Assembly (NCBI RefSeq): GCF_001661265.1
Contig: NW_017567003.1
Span: forward strand, 124,001 to 188,000
DNA from: Saitoella complicata NRRL Y-17804
Lineage: Eukaryota; Ascomycota; Saitoellomycetes; Saitoellales; Saitoellaceae
Direction of reading: 5' to 3'
Length of the DNA: 64,000 bases
The notes under the pieces are model-generated. The model was given only the letters and a program-made list of their open reading frames with translations. It was not told the origin of the DNA and searched no databases. The first letter of the stretch is position 1, and each line of letters starts with the position of its first letter. This document shows positions 20,891 to 61,386 of this stretch, in pieces. The translations under genes were made by a program, and so were the position numbers.

Positions 20891-22834
20891 ATGGCCGATC
20901 AAATAGCTACCCCGACAGATCAGCATCAGACGTCGTTGTCCTCTCTCGTTAACACCCTCGAGACCGCACCCGAGACTTTCTTGACGCCTACGCCCGCTCT
21001 TCATGCTTCGACCCTTGTAGTGGCTAAGCGCCTTCTCGACCCCGTCGCAAAACAGTTTTCGAACGTGTTCAATGAGATTTACTTGCAGGGGATGGACGTT
21101 GAGCAGATCTGGGAGCAGGTTAGGATGGTGACGGATGAGGTGGTGGATGATGTTATGGAGGTTGAGGTTGAAGATGAGGAGGATGATGTAGATGAGGACG
21201 GGCTTGAGGGCTTGGAGGATGAGGATGTGAGTGATGTGGATGATGAGGAGGATGAGGAGGAGTATGGGAGTGAGATGGAGGAGAATGAGTTTGAGGGGTT
21301 CCATAGTGAGGACGAGGAGGGTGTGGAGGGGGAGAGTTTCCTTGATACTGAAGCCGAGGAGGACTTTGAGGAGGAGGAAGAGGATGAGGAGATGGAGGGT
21401 GACGCATCCATTGACCGTGATGTCGACGAGCAGATGTTTGAGAGCGACGACGAAGAGAACGATGAAGAGGGCGACGCCGCCGATGAAGAAGCTGGCGAGG
21501 AGTACACAAAAGACGTCTTCGGCCTCAACGACAAATTCTTCTCCATCGACGATTTCAACCGCCAAACTGAGGAAATGGAGAACCGCAACATGATGGACGA
21601 AGACGACGAGATCGACTACTTTGCCGACCCAGATCAGCAAAACGTCGAGGGCGAGGAAGACCAGCCTGAGGAGATCAAGTACGAGGATTTCTTTGGTCCT
21701 AAGAAGGGTGCGAAGAAGGTTGCTGGTGGTAAGAGAAAACGGACGGCTGGTGATGATGGATCAGAGGCTGAGAAGCAAGAGGAGGAGGAGGACAACGATG
21801 ACCAGATCTTTAACCGCATGCAGAAAGACTTGTTTGCGGATGAGGAAGAGGATGAGCGTGACGCTGTCGGTAAGCCCGCGTCTGCCGCAGCGAAGCGCCA
21901 AGCTGCCATCGCCGACGAGATCCGAAGATACGAGATGGAGAACATCGGGAAGAAGGATTGGACGATGATGGGTGAGGCGAAGGCGAGGGACAGACCAACG
22001 AACGCTCTCCTCGAGGAGGATGTCGAGTTTGACCGTGCGGCAAAGCCCGTACCGGTCATCACCGAGGAGACCACGCAGACGTTGGAGGAAATCATCAAGC
22101 AACGAATTCTTGACCAGAACTTTGATGATATTGTTCGGAGACATCCGGACTCAATACCGGAGTTCAAGGCGAGCAGGTTGTTGCCCGATATCGACAACGA
22201 GAGATCTTCGAAGTCTCTGGCGGAGCAGTATGAGGATGACTACCAGAAGAAGATGAATCCGACAAAGACGGATGCACGGGATGAGAAGTTGTACAAAGAA
22301 CACGAGGAGATCTCGAAGTTGTTCGCGGATATCGTACACAAACTCGATGCGCTGACTTCCTACCACTACACGCCCAAACCACCAACAGAATCCATTACAG
22401 TCGTCACCAACGCACCCACAATCGCGTTGGAAGAAGCCCAACCAACTTCCCTCGCCGCAAAAGACCAACTCGCCCCTCAAGAAGTCTACTCCGCCGACCG
22501 CCGCGCCATGCGCGCCGAAGGTCTCCTTGTCGGTCCCTCCGGACTCCCACAAGCCCGCAGCGAAATGTCCCGCGAAGAAAAAGCCACGAATCGCCGTCGC
22601 GACAAACAGAGACTCAGGAAGAAGCTCCGTGCGGAGAACGAGAAGAAGGCGGTGGACGAGAAGGCGGGGAAGAAGCAGAGTCAGAAGGACATGGATGGAG
22701 ATGTTGTGAAGACTTTGAAGAGTGCTGGGGTTACGGTTATTGGGAAGGGTGGAGAGAAGAGGGATTTGCAAGGAAAGTTGCAGCAGGGTGGGAAACAGAC
22801 TGCTGCGGCTGGTGCGGCTGGGTTGAAGCTCTGA
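20891..22834 (+). CDS. MPP10: U3 snoRNP protein Mpp10
   Basis: A single-exon protein of 647 residues. It has an N-terminal helical region ending in GMDVEQIWEQVR, then a long Asp/Glu-rich tract (about residues 90-200), the IKYEDFFGPKK motif that is characteristic of Mpp10, further acidic and coiled-coil segments, and a C-terminal core with HEEISKLFADIVHKLDALT and EVYSADRRAMRAEGLL, ending in a Lys-rich tail. Mpp10 with Imp3 and Imp4 binds U3 snoRNA and is needed for the early cleavages that make 18S rRNA. A large antisense open frame here is a by-product of the acidic codons. Confidence 0.95.
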   Translation: MADQIATPTDQHQTSLSSLVNTLETAPETFLTPTPALHASTLVVAKRLLDPVAKQFSNVFNEIYLQGMDVEQIWEQVRMVTDEVVDDVMEVEVEDEEDDVDEDGLEGLEDEDVSDVDDEEDEEEYGSEMEENEFEGFHSEDEEGVEGESFLDTEAEEDFEEEEEDEEMEGDASIDRDVDEQMFESDDEENDEEGDAADEEAGEEYTKDVFGLNDKFFSIDDFNRQTEEMENRNMMDEDDEIDYFADPDQQNVEGEEDQPEEIKYEDFFGPKKGAKKVAGGKRKRTAGDDGSEAEKQEEEEDNDDQIFNRMQKDLFADEEEDERDAVGKPASAAAKRQAAIADEIRRYEMENIGKKDWTMMGEAKARDRPTNALLEEDVEFDRAAKPVPVITEETTQTLEEIIKQRILDQNFDDIVRRHPDSIPEFKASRLLPDIDNERSSKSLAEQYEDDYQKKMNPTKTDARDEKLYKEHEEISKLFADIVHKLDALTSYHYTPKPPTESITVVTNAPTIALEEAQPTSLAAKDQLAPQEVYSADRRAMRAEGLLVGPSGLPQARSEMSREEKATNRRRDKQRLRKKLRAENEKKAVDEKAGKKQSQKDMDGDVVKTLKSAGVTVIGKGGEKRDLQGKLQQGGKQTAAAGAAGLKL

Positions 22835-28701: not shown

Positions 28702-29645
28702 GAGGGTATTTCGTCTTTGTTTACAGTGTATGCAGCGCCCGCTGCCAAGAGCAACCATGACCAGCCAATCCACACGTGATCTCTCCCACGGCGCGCACTG
28801 CTTAAATATCCTGCGCGTGCCGCTCCTCCAACATTTCCGTCACACCCGTGCTCGAAGAATCGCAAACGAAGCTTACACACGGATCCGTATGGATCATTCC
28901 AAGCTTTGGGGAAAGTCCCCGGACACACACGGCGTAAACGCACCGGCATAGAAGCATCTCCGGTTTAGCTTGCGTTCAGCAAATCCGCGTCGTCCTCGGT
29001 CATGAGCTTCCTCGTCCCCTCGGGGAGAAGGCGAAGATATGAGTCTTTGGAGTTTGTGGTCATCATGGGGGCGGTGTCGGTGAACGTGGGTACATCTCGT
29101 CACAGACGATAGTTATGCGATTGCTCTTCTGTCGCAAGACGGGAGGGTAACTCGATGGGGCTTATTCTCGGCGCACGGGTGTCACATTTTCTCTCTATTT
29201 CATGAGCCTGTCGCTTAAGGTAAAAGCGCCGTTCCCTTTTTGGGTACGGAGATGTTCGTTCACATCGAGCCGAGCTCTCAGAGAGAAGGTGGTATGCTTG
29301 GTGAAGATGAGAGCAGAGGCAGTTGACATTGCCATACTCCGCAAGGATTGCACGATGATGATCTCAACATAAAATATACTAGAAGTCAAGCACTGAAGAC
29401 GCGTGCGTCGCTGTTGCTAAACTATGAGTTTCTGAGCAATCCTCGTCGAGTTATGGAGTGTTCGCTGGCTTTGGAGAATCAGAATGGAATAGCATGGTAG
29501 TTAGCATATATACCTGATTGAACTGTTCCTCAAATGATCTTTCCGAGCATCAAACCGTACTATACCCTCTGTGTTTGTATCATGCGGCCCCATGCAAGTC
29601 TTCGAGGTTACGTAAACGTAACACTTCAACCATCTCACCATAGCG
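28702..29645. other. Divergent region between palA and the SPF45 gene
   Basis: About 940 bp with no supported gene. A PacC-type hexamer GCCAAG occurs at 28744-28749, about 45 bp upstream of palA, but one hexamer is weak evidence. Confidence 0.45.
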
Positions 29646-37356: not shown

Positions 37357-38613
37357 ATGTTCAGATCGATCCGCGTAGCCAAATCCGCATCCTCACTGCG
37401 TGCTCAATTCCTTCACAGCACGTCTTCCAATCCGGCGCCCTCCGTCACCCTCCTGTCCGCTGCGCAGCAAAATGTGAATAAGAGCAACCAGTGGGCGAGT
37501 AAGACTGTTGCGGAGCTGAGACTGGAGTTGAAGAAGAGGGGTTTGAAGAATAGTGGAAAGAAGTCTGAGCTTGTGGAGAGACTTTTCTCATCAGACGCTG
37601 CGACTGCGTCTGCTACGCCGATCGCGAAGCCTGCTCCGGCTGTTGCGGAGAAGTTCCCAAATGTTACAAAGAGGCATGCGTCAAGTAAGGCTAGTGATAC
37701 GAAGCAGCCTATGGATGCGAACAAGGTTACGATACCCGCTGCAGACATCCCAGCGCCAACAGAGGACGTAATCGCCGAACAGCAATTCGACGCCCAAGCC
37801 AACATCCCGATCACCCCCACCACAATCCGTGAAGCCCCCAAAGCCCCCAAAGCCCCCGAGCTAACGGTTGCGAAACCCGAGGTGCATGTCGTTGATGACT
37901 CGGCCGGTGCGGATGTTGCGCAGCTAGCGGGCGAGGTTGAGCAGCCTGTTAATAAGCAGGAGGGAGTAGGTAGTGTGAGGGAGGCTGTTGAGGCTGCGAA
38001 GGATAAGGCGCATGCTGGGGTTAACAAGTTGACGGAGGAGGTGCCTGAGAAGGTGAAGGAGAATGTTGGGTCTGTTGCTGAGCAGGTGAAGGAGAAGGCG
38101 CAGCAGGCTCCGAAGAAGGTGCAGGAGAGTGCTGGCTCCGTCGTCGATAAGGTCAAGGAGCAAGCAGAGCAAGTCAAGGAGAAGGCACAGGAGGCACCCA
38201 GCAAGGTGCAAGAAACCGCTGGCTCCGTCGTCGACAAGGTGAAGGGGCAAGCAGAGCAAGTCAAGGAGAAGGCGCAGCAGGCTCCGAAGAAGGTGCAGGA
38301 GGCTGCTGGCTCCGTCGTGGACAAGGTCAAGGAGCAAGCAGAGCAAGTCAAGGAGAAGGCACAGGAGGCTCCGAAGAGAGTGCAGGAGGCTGCTGGCACC
38401 GTCGTGGACAAGGTCAAGAAGCAAGCACAGCAAGTCAAGGAAAAGGTATCAGAGAAGGTCGCCGATGCTAGTTCCAGCGAGGCTCCTGAGGGCGAGATCT
38501 CCGGCCGTGATAAGACCATTCTCTGGACTTTATTTGGTGGTATTCTTGGTTGGACGCTCTACGGTGATAAGCTCACCAAGAAGTCGAAGAAAGAGGAGGA
38601 GGGGAAGCACTGA
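37357..38613 (+). CDS. Mitochondrial SAP-domain protein with LEA-like tandem repeats and a C-terminal helix
   Basis: A single-exon protein of 418 residues. The ATG at 37357 was chosen because it opens a classic mitochondrial presequence (MFRSIRVAKSASSLRAQF). A SAP motif follows at about residues 48-78 (TVAELRLELKKRGLKNSG). A disordered Ala/Pro/Thr-rich stretch leads to about 145 residues of Lys/Glu/Gln/Ala amphipathic repeats of 29 residues, resembling group 3 LEA or apolipoprotein-type helices. Near the C-terminus TILWTLFGGILGWTLYGD is a likely membrane helix, followed by a Lys-rich tail. SAP domains usually bind nucleic acid, so it may tether mitochondrial DNA to the inner membrane; this is inference. 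Confidence 0.8.
   Translation: MFRSIRVAKSASSLRAQFLHSTSSNPAPSVTLLSAAQQNVNKSNQWASKTVAELRLELKKRGLKNSGKKSELVERLFSSDAATASATPIAKPAPAVAEKFPNVTKRHASSKASDTKQPMDANKVTIPAADIPAPTEDVIAEQQFDAQANIPITPTTIREAPKAPKAPELTVAKPEVHVVDDSAGADVAQLAGEVEQPVNKQEGVGSVREAVEAAKDKAHAGVNKLTEEVPEKVKENVGSVAEQVKEKAQQAPKKVQESAGSVVDKVKEQAEQVKEKAQEAPSKVQETAGSVVDKVKGQAEQVKEKAQQAPKKVQEAAGSVVDKVKEQAEQVKEKAQEAPKRVQEAAGTVVDKVKKQAQQVKEKVSEKVADASSSEAPEGEISGRDKTILWTLFGGILGWTLYGDKLTKKSKKEEEGKH
38131..38460 (+). repeat. 87-bp in-frame tandem repeats
   Basis: Units start at 38131, 38218, 38305 and 38392 (the last degenerate), each encoding 29 residues that begin AG(S/T)VVDKVK and contain QVKEKAQ. The nucleotide similarity among units is high, which indicates recent duplication by unequal exchange or slippage. 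Confidence 0.9.
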
Positions 38614-38941: not shown

Positions 38942-40249
38942 ATGTCCGTCAATAACAACGCTGATCTCAAAAATGACTTTGAGGTATGTCTCATTCGCGT
39001 CCTCCCTCTTTGCGCTGTGCTAATGGGGTGTACGTAGCTCTCTAACCCGCCAGAGGACTCCATTTCCGATATGGCATGGTCATCACAACAAGATTTCCTA
39101 GCCGTCGCATCATGGGATAAGAAGATGAGGATTTATGAGGTGCTCTCGAATGGACAGACGATTGGGAAAGCCATGTGGGAGCATGAAGCCCCGGTTCTGT
39201 CCTGTCACTGGTCAAAGGTGAGCGCCCTTCGTGTCGCAATTGATCCGCACCTCACGTACTTACAAATACAATCAGGACGGAACGAAGGTTGCAAGTGGAG
39301 GAGCCGATAAAGCTGGTCGCATCTTCGATATCGCGAGTGGACAGTCACAACAAGTAGCTGCTCACGACGCCCCCATTAAATCCGTCCGCTGGATCGACGC
39401 CGGTCAGGGAGGTAGCCTCCTCGCTACCGGATCCTGGGACAAAACCGTCAAATACTGGGATCTCCGACAACAATCCCCCGTCGCGACACTCAACCTCCCC
39501 GAACGTGTTTACGCCATGGATGTGGTGAATCAGTTGATGGTGGTGGGAACTGCGGAACGACATATCTGTATCGTGAACTTGAGTAATCCGACGAATATCT
39601 ACAAGACACTTCAGAGTCCGTTGAAGTGGCAGACGAGGACTGTGGCGTGTTTCCCGAATGGAAGTGGGTATGCGGTGGGAAGTATTGAGGGGAGGTGTGC
39701 GATTCAGTATATTGAGGATAAGGATCAGAGGTATATCTCATGACATTGCGACTGAGACGCATACTGACGTGGCATATAGTTTGAACTTCTCCTTCAAGTG
39801 TCATCGTGAGACGCCCTCGGGAGTCAACCAGCCAGCTCAGGTGTATGCTGTGAATGCTCTGTCATTCCACCCTCTACACGGTACATTCTCGACTGCTGGT
39901 TCCGATGGTTCTTTCCACTTCTGGTTTGTTGAACTCATCGAATAACGGTGGCTCGCTCCTTTACTGATGGCTTCAACAGGGACAAGGATTCGAAGCATCG
40001 TTTGAAGGGATACAACCCTCTTGGGGCTACCATCCCATGCACTGCCTTTAACCATAACGGAACTATCTTTGCCTACGCTTTGTCATATGATTGGAGCAAG
40101 GTGAGCTCTTTGACTTGGACGTTATGCAATCGATGCTGACGAGAAGCTTACAGGGCTACCAAACCAACACCCAGCAATACCCCAACAAGATCATGCTTCA
40201 CGCTACGAAGGATGAAGAAGTCAAGCCTCGGCCCAAGGGAAAGCGTTAG
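38942..40249 (+). CDS. GLE2: Nucleoporin/mRNA export factor Gle2 (Rae1)
   Basis: Six exons (38942-38983, 39038-39217, 39276-39730, 39780-39923, 39980-40100, 40154-40249) give 345 residues. It is a seven-bladed WD40 propeller: [54 protein letters not shown], and [15 protein letters not shown] are blade elements, and [11 protein letters not shown] with [15 protein letters not shown] is specific for Rae1/Gle2 (the spliced [14 protein letters not shown] follows). Rae1/Gle2 binds the GLEBS motif of Nup98/Nup116 and acts in mRNA export and mitotic checkpoint control. The C-terminal KPRPKGKR is the conserved basic end. Confidence 0.96.
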
Positions 40250-43998: not shown

Positions 43999-44516
43999 AT
44001 GCCAAAGAATATCCCAGTTCCAAAGCACCGTCTCGTGTCTCTCCTTCCTCAACCTCTCCTGCGATTCTTCTCCCGCTATCCACCATTACAGCCTCTCCCG
44101 GCAGATAAACCCCACCCTTTCGAATTCCACATCAACCCCTTATCTGGCAACCGCAATGACCCAGTCTACTCCCGGAGACGGCAAGCCGATTTGGTCAATA
44201 AGGCGAGGCCATTTGGCTTGGATGGTATCCTGAAGGAGATGGGTGCGCTCCGTGACATGGGAAGCAGCAAGCCCATGAAGGGTCTGATCAAGTGGAAGCG
44301 TCACAAGTCTGAGAGAACATATAAGTCTAAAATGAAGAAGCGGGCGGATGCTCTTGAGGGTATGGCTGAGAAGATCAAGGCCTGGAACCCAGCGAAGGTC
44401 AGTTTTCTCCTTGTCCCTTTGATTTGTGCACTGTACTTACCATTATGCAGGCGGAAGGAAAAGCACAACGTTTGGCAGAGAAGGAAGCAAACATCAAGGC
44501 GGCAACCAGGGAATAG
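43999..44516 (+). CDS. MRPL25: Mitochondrial large-subunit ribosomal protein mL59 (MrpL25)
   Basis: Two exons (43999-44397 and 44451-44516) give 154 residues. Family features include RFFSRYPP near the N-terminus, NPVYSRRRQADL-like NDPVYSRRRQADLVNKAR, and the basic KWKRHKSERTYKSKMKKR helix followed by AEKIKAWN. The splice adds the final AEGKAQRLAEKEANIKAATRE. mL59 is a fungal-specific mitoribosomal protein of the large subunit. Confidence 0.88.
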
Positions 44517-59250: not shown

Positions 59251-60447
59251 CTATGTAACCTTCTTGTTCGTGTTGACGAAACCAGTTCCCATACACGATA
59301 CGAGGAACTCCGGTTCTGGGGTTTCCTTCTCCTCATCATCGTCCTCCTCTTCTTCGTCATCCTCATCCATAGGGTTTCCTTGTGGCTTTTCTCTCAACAA
59401 GAACTCGGCTCCCCAGAAAGTCTTGATATCCCGCAACATCTCGACCAGGTTCTCATCCACTCTGGCTCCGATGTCGCACCGCCCAACATCCTCCGATCCA
59501 AGAACCATGAAAGGCAGAACGATACCAGTACCTGCCGAGTCAACCGCACCATTCTTCCTGATCTCCCGTAACAGCATCTTCGCACACGCCTTTCCCACGT
59601 CCTCCGCCGGCTGTCCGGGTCCACCCGTCAAATCCGCCGTATAAATCGTCTGCGTATTCGCACATTCCGCAACCAAACTCAACGAAAACCCAGGCGAGTT
59701 ACCACTCTCCGCACCCTTATACACATCCGTATAGATATACACATCCGGGATATATCTGTTCAACACACCTCTTGCTGCCTCCACCATTCTGTTTGCGATT
59801 GCAGGTGAGACACGGGTCGAGGCGGCGATACCTCTGATTCGGGAGATACGGCCGGGGTCGAGCCAGTGGATTGTTTTGACGTTTCGGACGTTGGGGCAGA
59901 GGAAGTGGACTTCTCCTCCGCCGAGGGGTGGTGCTCCTCTTTTCAGGATTCGTAGTTCAACACCATCTGGGACACCGAAGCGAGTGAGAAGGGGAAGAAT
60001 TCCTGTTCTGATAGTGTCGATGGTCAAGTCAAGAGAATCGGCTGTGATTCCCTTGAGGTGTAGTGAGAGCGGCTGCTTGGTGAATGGCGCAAGTAACAGA
60101 AGAGGGTAGAGGAAGTAGGATATTGATCGTGATGGCGGGCATTCGTGGGTATGTGTTCCTCCGTGAATCAATCCAGGTTTGTAGAGCACCGTGGTACCGG
60201 TGTACGAGATCTCGATATGTGCTCCGTTCGTCACAGCCTCCAGCAATCGTAGCAAAGACACCTCGTAGTCTCTCAAACCAGGTTCCAAATCATTAGAACG
60301 GATTCCGTCGAACCTTACGGGGCGGCCAGTCAATGTGGCATAGATCAGGCGGCGAGCAAAGTGCTTGTGTCCGGTGAAACGGACGAGCTTTGCCGCTGAG
60401 GTCGCGGAGGCAGCGTGGGCCGCTGAAGAGGGTGCTACTGAAGGCAT
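59251..60447 (-). CDS. RCL1: RNA 3'-terminal phosphate cyclase-like protein Rcl1
   Basis: A single-exon protein of 398 residues from ATG 60447; the frame is open to 60615 but the extra part is not family-like. It has the RTC fold with KLVRFTGHKHFARRLIYATLTGRPVRF split as KLVRFTGHKHFARRL and YATLTGRPVRFDGIR, SISYFLYPLLLLAPF, and RGAPPLGGGEVHF. The Rcl1 branch lacks the catalytic His of true cyclases; the C-terminus has an acidic DDEEEEDDDEE run. Rcl1 works with Bms1 in the SSU processome and is needed for pre-rRNA cleavage at A2. It is divergent from the snoRNA host gene. Confidence 0.94.
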   Translation of the reverse strand: MPSVAPSSAAHAASATSAAKLVRFTGHKHFARRLIYATLTGRPVRFDGIRSNDLEPGLRDYEVSLLRLLEAVTNGAHIEISYTGTTVLYKPGLIHGGTHTHECPPSRSISYFLYPLLLLAPFTKQPLSLHLKGITADSLDLTIDTIRTGILPLLTRFGVPDGVELRILKRGAPPLGGGEVHFLCPNVRNVKTIHWLDPGRISRIRGIAASTRVSPAIANRMVEAARGVLNRYIPDVYIYTDVYKGAESGNSPGFSLSLVAECANTQTIYTADLTGGPGQPAEDVGKACAKMLLREIRKNGAVDSAGTGIVLPFMVLGSEDVGRCDIGARVDENLVEMLRDIKTFWGAEFLLREKPQGNPMDEDDEEEEDDDEEKETPEPEFLVSCMGTGFVNTNKKVT

Positions 60448-60696
60448 GGGAAGTCTGATGTACGTAGCAGGATGTCCAAGTTCCTCATCAACGATGCCAA
60501 AAATAACGTTTATCCGCCGAAATTTCGAACGTGGCGAAACATGGCTCAGCAGGCACGTCGCAGGAGCTGCCAACTTTTTTGGAGTGCGCGGTGCTCGAGG
60601 AGGAGGAATAACCAACCTTCTCGAACCAACGTCAACTTGCTTTTTGCAATCTATTCTCCTCGAGCTGCCTTTATAATCCGATAGAACGGATCAACA
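60448..60696. promoter_or_regulatory. Divergent promoter between RCL1 and the snoRNA host gene
   Basis: 249 bp separate the start codons of two genes that both bear on ribosome synthesis; a TATA-like TTATAATC lies at about 60671, upstream of the host gene. Confidence 0.5.
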
Positions 60697-61386
60697 ATGT
60701 CTCACGCACGAGCAACAAAATCTCTTACAGTGCTGTTGGAGCGAAGACATGGCATCTCCACTTCAGCGACACCAGAAGCTGGCAAGCCATCCAGAGCAGC
60801 TAAGCGAAGAAAAGCAAAGAAGGCCGAAAAAGTGTTTGACGTTGATGGTGGGTCTTCTTCCTTTCTGTGAGAGCGTTACAGCGCGATACGAACACGACGA
60901 CGGCGACTTCGCAATTGAACGGTAATGATGATAAATTTGCTATTATTTCTAAACCCAGCTCTCCGATGCCTGTGTGCAATATGAGTTCGATGACCTATTA
61001 TATCTGACCCCTTACAATTCTCGACAATGTCGTCTGTTCTATCGTCGCTGCTGCCGCTCTCGCTGATCTCGCGATTTTGAGTGAGCATAGCTAACAAGTA
61101 TGTTATAGCCGTTCTTGCATCAGAGTCGAATACCAAGTCTTCGCACCTCTCCGATAACCTCCAGTTCCTGAACCGTTACTCTGCTCTCCCAACAGAGAAG
61201 GAGCAAGAGCTGAAAGCCAAGCTCCTTGCTGCAAGAGAAGCAAAACTTTCGGCAAACAAACCGAAGACGAAGTTGAAGAGCGGCAAGAAGAAGAAGCCGG
61301 CTGACAAGGGATACACTCTTCCTGGTTTGACTGCAGGGTTGGCTGCTGTTGGTGACGAGGACAGTAGTGACAGCGATGACGAGTAA
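60697..61386 (+). CDS. Small basic protein, host gene of an intronic snoRNA
   Basis: Two exons (60697-60847 and 61109-61386) give 142 residues. The protein is rich in Lys, Ala and Glu: a KRRKAKKAEK stretch at the end of exon 1, a helical EKEQELKAKLLAAREAKLS segment, KLKSGKKKK, then an acidic DEDSSDSDDE C-terminus. Composition suggests a nucleolar protein, but I cannot name the family. The intron of 261 bp is four to five times longer than any other in the window and contains the C/D snoRNA reported separately. Confidence 0.7.
60921..61011 (+). ncRNA. Intronic C/D box snoRNA, predicted 25S rRNA 2'-O-methylation guide (snR69-like)
   Basis: Inside the intron of the small basic gene. Box C is ATGATGA at 60925-60931 and box D is CTGA at 61004-61007. 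An internal D'-like CCGA lies at 60963-60966 and a C'-like CGATGAC at 60988-60994. Upstream of D', TCTAAACCCAGCTC (60948-60961) is a perfect 14-nt antisense match to the conserved large-subunit rRNA stretch GAGCTGGGTTTAGA near the peptidyl transferase centre. Counting five bases from D' selects the C of GAGC, equivalent to yeast C2948, the snR69 site. The flanking stem is weak. The CCGA box departs from CTGA by one base. Confidence 0.75.

Follow-up and report, generated by a model that had tools for sequence, protein, structure and literature searches.

What does a small gene of the ascomycete Saitoella complicata NRRL Y-17804 carry in its 261-bp intron? We examined this locus within a 64-kb window, the whole stretch of contig NW_017567003.1 analysed (positions 124,001 to 188,000, forward strand), and confirm the letters, intron, guide and register described in the original prediction. 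Judged from sequence, the intron probably encodes a box C/D snoRNA of the snR69 type, aimed at residue C2948 of LSU rRNA (yeast numbering), and we place the probability of this reading near 0.87. It rests on the order of boxes and guide in a spliceable intron, on 14 base pairs with the rRNA and on a D'+5 register that falls on C2948. It rests further on an end-to-end Rfam match, on the rarity of the full arrangement, on the listing of the site in yeast, Dictyostelium and Neurospora, and on intron flanks that, in a fold with the snoRNA masked, pair right up to 60922/61009 beside boxes C and D. Once spliced out, the intron would be debranched and trimmed by exonucleases to about 60921-61009. The snoRNA would then assemble with the usual C/D proteins, and its D' guide would direct 2'-O-methylation of C2948. 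In Fusarium without the debranching enzyme, five intronic snoRNAs are reported to be lowered (PMC9606315).

Table 1. Coordinates of the features at the snoRNA locus and elsewhere in the 64-kb window.
Feature	Position	Strand	Basis
Host gene exon 1	60697..60847	+	ATG at 60697; open reading frame and splice junction
Intron, 261 bp	60848..61108	+	frame-preserving splice, predicted from sequence
5' arm of 31-bp stem	60869..60902	+	predicted fold
snR69-type box C/D snoRNA (predicted)	60921..61009	+	extent of Rfam RF00475 match
Box C, ATGATGA	60925..60931	+	sequence
D' guide, 14 nt, TCTAAACCCAGCTC	60948..60961	+	complementary to LSU 2945-2958 (yeast numbering)
Box D', CCGA, 3/4 to CTGA	60963..60966	+	sequence
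Box C' candidate, TCGATGA, 5/7 to consensus	60987..60993	+	sequence (CGATGA 60988-60993)
Box D, CTGA	61004..61007	+	sequence
3' arm of 31-bp stem	61028..61061	+	predicted fold
Host gene exon 2 with stop	61109..61386	+	
RCL1	59251..60447	-	PDB Rcl1 chains E 8e-99, below 1e-70 for five chains; Pfam RTC
RNase MRP RNA gene	28845-29178	+	Rfam RF00030, 111.6 bits, complete
MPP10, U3 snoRNP component	20891-22834	+	Pfam E 5.9e-126
Protein with SAP domain, then apolipoprotein-like amphipathic repeats	37357-38613	+	Pfam SAP E 1.1e-9, ApoLp-III E 2.4e-12
Mitochondrial ribosomal protein mL59, first exon region	43999-44397	+	Pfam E 6.3e-24

The intron is bounded by the donor GTGGGT (60848) and the acceptor TATAG (61108), with a branch-like CTAAC at 61091-61095, and joining the host exons from GTGGGT to TATAG (60697-61386, plus strand) yields a protein of 142 aa. 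The claim that boxes C, D', C' and D lie in order inside this intron is borne out by the letters and by the predicted splice. An RTGATGA motif stands near the 5' end and a CTGA near the 3' end, as in box C/D RNAs, and the antisense element of at least 10 nt adjoining D or D' is here 14 nt long and ends one base before CCGA. C' and D are spaced by 10 nt. Counting against the snR69-type reading, D' and C' are both degenerate, and the snoRNA begins 73 nt from the donor, compared with mainly 41-60 nt for Neurospora intronic snoRNAs (PMC2780460). We also considered a second guide before box D; a 10-mer scan, run against E. coli 16S/23S rRNA and a 90-nt piece of eukaryotic LSU rRNA, not fungal rRNA, returned the D' guide only.

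Which residue does the guide select? It forms 14 Watson-Crick pairs with LSU 2945-2958, in agreement with the perfect match first proposed. The target GAGCTGGGTTTAGA occurs in E. coli 23S rRNA and in the Rfam eukaryotic LSU consensus, the latter read from its alignment to a contig picked out by pattern, in keeping with the stated conservation from bacteria to fungi, and a typed 41-mer containing it matches 5375 of 5426 genomes. Positions 60947-60961 are antisense to E. coli 23S rRNA over 15 nt (two overlapping 14-mers), and on the eukaryotic LSU piece the match is one nucleotide shorter, the next base, C2959, being unpaired. Anchoring yeast numbering on U2921 gives, at 2922, 2946, 2948 and 2959, the letters expected for the known sites in a table row of PMC8817022. 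G60958, the fifth base before D', faces C2948, so that the fifth-base rule leads, as predicted, to the snR69 site, and the D' guide places C2948 at D'+5 as in snR69. D' is placed for C2948, not for A2946.

The residue is already on record as a methylation site. A published table assigns Cm2948 to snR69 in yeast and its Dictyostelium equivalent, Cm3281, to CD15, the residue being the one predicted as target of the Saitoella snoRNA; the same table has no human or Arabidopsis entry for the site (PMC8817022). Neurospora crassa CD27 is likewise intronic, with a D' guide listed for the same residue (Cm2906 there), and is given an Arabidopsis counterpart, snoR69Y (PMC2780460); over Arabidopsis, then, the two sources disagree as far as their listings go. 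Unlike the Saitoella snoRNA, CD27 is also listed for the neighboring snR71/U29 site, Am2904 (PMC2780460).

The Rfam snR69 model (RF00475) aligns from end to end (model 1-94 of 94) on the snoRNA span with 31.3 bits. The covariance check proposed at the outset succeeded in extent and fell short in score: the gathering cut-off is 50, and for this reason we file the RNA as snR69-type and not as a certified member of RF00475. At the Rfam gathering threshold, no snR69 match is reported in the window. On the preselected 276 bp, snR69 is the best Rfam family (E 0.0014); across the entire window, with 4227 families compared, its E-value is 0.34, second after a strong RNase MRP match, and division by 4227 puts the value for snR69 alone at about 8e-5. 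The alignment extends beyond the rRNA-complementary stretch into CTCTxCGAT. With S. cerevisiae snR69 (25S Cm2948) the Saitoella snoRNA has in common the predicted target residue, the D' guide with flanking CTCTxCGAT and the box order; it differs in scoring under the family cut-off and in sitting in a protein-coding intron. To our knowledge, S. cerevisiae snR69 itself is not intronic. Most S. cerevisiae snoRNA genes are non-intronic (PMC2780460). The second match at the locus, DdR16 of the distant organism Dictyostelium, has a similar guide but scores 18.1 bits (E 1.2), far under its cut-off of 70. A search for the snR69 family found it in 0 of 1 genome and 0 of 14 control genomes and is thus uninformative.

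Could an ordinary intron resemble a snoRNA by chance? Measured against E. coli 16S/23S rRNA and the 90-nt eukaryotic LSU piece, five 14-mers antisense to rRNA occur in the window, at three places, compared with a mean of 2.35 in 150 shuffles. Since about two such matches would be expected in a window, the 14-nt match by itself is not significant. The full arrangement is rarer: an exact box C together with box D, a D'-like box and a guide of at least 12 nt is seen at one place in the window, and 150 shuffles yield two cases. With a 10-nt guide allowed, the 150 shuffles yield 49. A chance reading is also favored by the whole-window E-value of 0.34, and the box C-guide-D' pattern, scanned for in two very large collections without fungal genomes, is matched exactly on three contigs, two of them bacterial and one viral, none with an Rfam match at E<=0.5. 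We read these as chance; they are, however, three places across both collections, whereas the Saitoella locus has an intron setting, a known methylation site, an exact D'+5 register and an end-to-end family match. A fortuitous likeness is accordingly exceedingly improbable, and the case for an snR69-type guide lies in several signs jointly: family model, known site, register and intron.

Two further readings accept a box C/D snoRNA or its remains. A D' guide of the snR71/U29 type, marking A2946 alone or together with C2948, has a precedent in Neurospora CD27, listed for both adjoining sites via D' (PMC2780460), and A2946 does lie within the stretch paired by the guide. That residue faces T60960, however, which would place the beginning of D' at 60965, where GATG makes a poor box; T60962, the base beyond the guide, is unpaired with U2944, and snR71/U29 is absent among the 10 matches listed, with snR69 the best Rfam family. 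We consider this reading very improbable. About equally improbable is a decayed or unexpressed snR69 copy at this locus whose functional counterpart lies at another site of the genome. A second copy could lie outside the 64 kb examined, and the degenerate D' and C' would fit decay, but boxes C and D are intact, as is the 14-nt guide, and degenerate D'/C' boxes are described as common among working eukaryotic snoRNAs (PMC8413462).

Around the snR69-type snoRNA, the intron flanks are predicted to form a 31-bp stem with four single-nucleotide bulges and one 1x1 mismatch, and pair probabilities are 0.93-1.00 at the six positions checked. When the snoRNA is held unpaired, as if protein-bound, flank pairing reaches 60922/61009, adjoining boxes C and D, for a total of 43 pairs; the terminal stem would then consist of GG 60921-60922 with CC 61009-61010 plus 41 outer pairs. 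The inner 12 form only under this masking. In the unmasked fold they are absent and parts of the snoRNA pair otherwise, which counts against the snR69-type reading. The 31-bp stem begins 21 nt past the donor and stops 29 nt before CTAAC, leaving linkers of 50 nt in all, and subtraction of the 193-nt stem-loop gives an effective intron of 68 nt. This geometry agrees with that published for zipper stems, namely at least 6 bp, at least 10 nt after the donor and at least 20 nt before the branch site, linkers of 42-85 nt in all and at most 5 bulged nucleotides (PMC12350175). Should the mismatch be treated as a bulge, the inner 24 bp by themselves stay within these limits, with a linker of 66 nt.

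How unusual is such a stem? Zippers of at least 6 bp are found in 89 of 500 shuffles and in 158 of 798 window segments, and because they are so frequent only the length of the stem is unusual: a zipper-position helix of at least 31 bp occurs in none of the 500 shuffles and in two of the 798 segments. Other measures set the stem apart less clearly. No shuffle out of 2000 reaches the energy of the flank duplex, but 39 of 3188 places in the window do, counting the locus itself. Its helix score is reached in 0 of 1000 shuffles, at 9 of 3188 window places (one being the locus) and at 5 of 1343 GC-matched places. For the whole intron the folding z-score is -1.72, with 13 of 200 shuffles as good.

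Why enclose a snoRNA in so long a stem? A stem of the intron flanks could hold the two snoRNA ends together and bring the intron down from 261 nt to an effective length of 68 nt. We tentatively suggest a composite device, on balance doubtful and drawn from the fold model, in which the 31-bp zipper stem would loop out the snoRNA, present an effective 68-nt intron to a spliceosome accustomed to introns of roughly 50-80 nt and also clamp the snoRNA ends for snoRNP assembly. Pairing that shortens the distance from donor to branch site is reported to promote splicing of yeast RPS17B (PMC2536676), and in RPS17B and other yeast zipper introns the stem likewise lies between the 5' splice site and the branch site, with linkers within 42-85 nt (PMC12350175, PMC2536676); the Saitoella stem differs in enclosing a snoRNA, and the 2025 zipper-stem study excluded the eight snoRNA introns in its set (PMC12350175). 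U74 is an intronic snoRNA that also has a stem outside its boxes, an extended external stem reported for splicing-independent production, whereas the Saitoella intron looks ordinarily spliceable (PMC12205218). If the suggestion is true, a composite stem could be a general route by which short-intron fungi house intronic snoRNAs, and the enclosing stem offers a concrete, testable idea for how short-intron genomes accommodate them.

Are the introns of this window in fact short? The others had been put at 45-82 bp, which our results bear out in part. Many of 49-61 bp are indeed found, along with some of 85-149 bp, by gene finders that are crude; with 400 bp allowed, the finders also give many introns longer than 149 bp, which we judged spurious. 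The first finder returned 65 introns with a median of 198, with genes fused via false long introns. The second returned 94 (median 157) with 400 nt allowed and 70 (median 61.5) with 150 nt allowed, opposite-strand models included in both, and mis-modelled the host intron as 243 nt in a wrong gene model or as a split of 111 + 119. Stricter scans gave 1, 3 and 22 introns; among the 22, 12 are below 100 nt and 8 above 200. Since these results are crude and conflicting, we build no claim on the exact length distribution, and the closeness of the effective 68 nt to the short introns seemingly common in the window is a rough comparison.

The host had been described as of unknown family; it has sub-threshold RRT14/AROS-like matches. 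Residues 83-139 of the protein match Pfam RRT14 (E 1.8e-4, 22.1 bits) and residues 8-112 match AROS (E 0.012, 16.6 bits), both below the Pfam cut-off of 27, and weak matches to PDB Rrt14 chains are also obtained (E 0.46 and 1.2). None of nine block-shuffled copies matches RRT14 or AROS at E<=0.1; three of the nine match other families at E 0.027-0.092, so that the AROS value alone is weak. A match to NCBIfam EzrA (E 0.058) was rejected. A published table of small-subunit assembly factors includes RRT14 as well as AROS/RPS19BP1 (PMC13248013), and we infer that the two are counterparts of each other. RCL1 is divergent to the host gene, with 249 bp (60448-60696) between the start codons; as read from this arrangement, the region plausibly holds a promoter common to RCL1 and the snoRNA host. 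As a side observation, the same divergent region offers possible joint control of ribosome-assembly genes. No relatives of RCL1 or the host were found in viral contigs, a poor place for fungal genes.

What does the locus add? The site is already listed for yeast, Neurospora and Dictyostelium, so the kind of guide and its methylation are already known, and intronic snoRNAs are familiar in fungi: 45 of 55 Neurospora C/D snoRNAs are intronic (PMC2780460), and introns of the ribosome-related genes RPL7 and NOG2 carry snoRNAs across many fungi (PMC8476143). Within the parts of the literature on snR69, fungal intronic snoRNAs and RPS19BP1 available to us, we found no description of this host-snoRNA pair. 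It would add a fungal pair whose snoRNA and host protein (if RRT14/AROS-like), together with the divergent neighbor RCL1, would all serve ribosome assembly.

Elsewhere in the window, an Rfam match to mir-1744 at 39910 (23.8 bits against a cut-off of 73) was taken as chance, and a bacterial promoter/terminator scan was set aside as inapplicable to a fungus. The 64 kb hold several ribosome-assembly genes, namely MPP10, RCL1, the RRT14-like host and the RNase MRP RNA gene.
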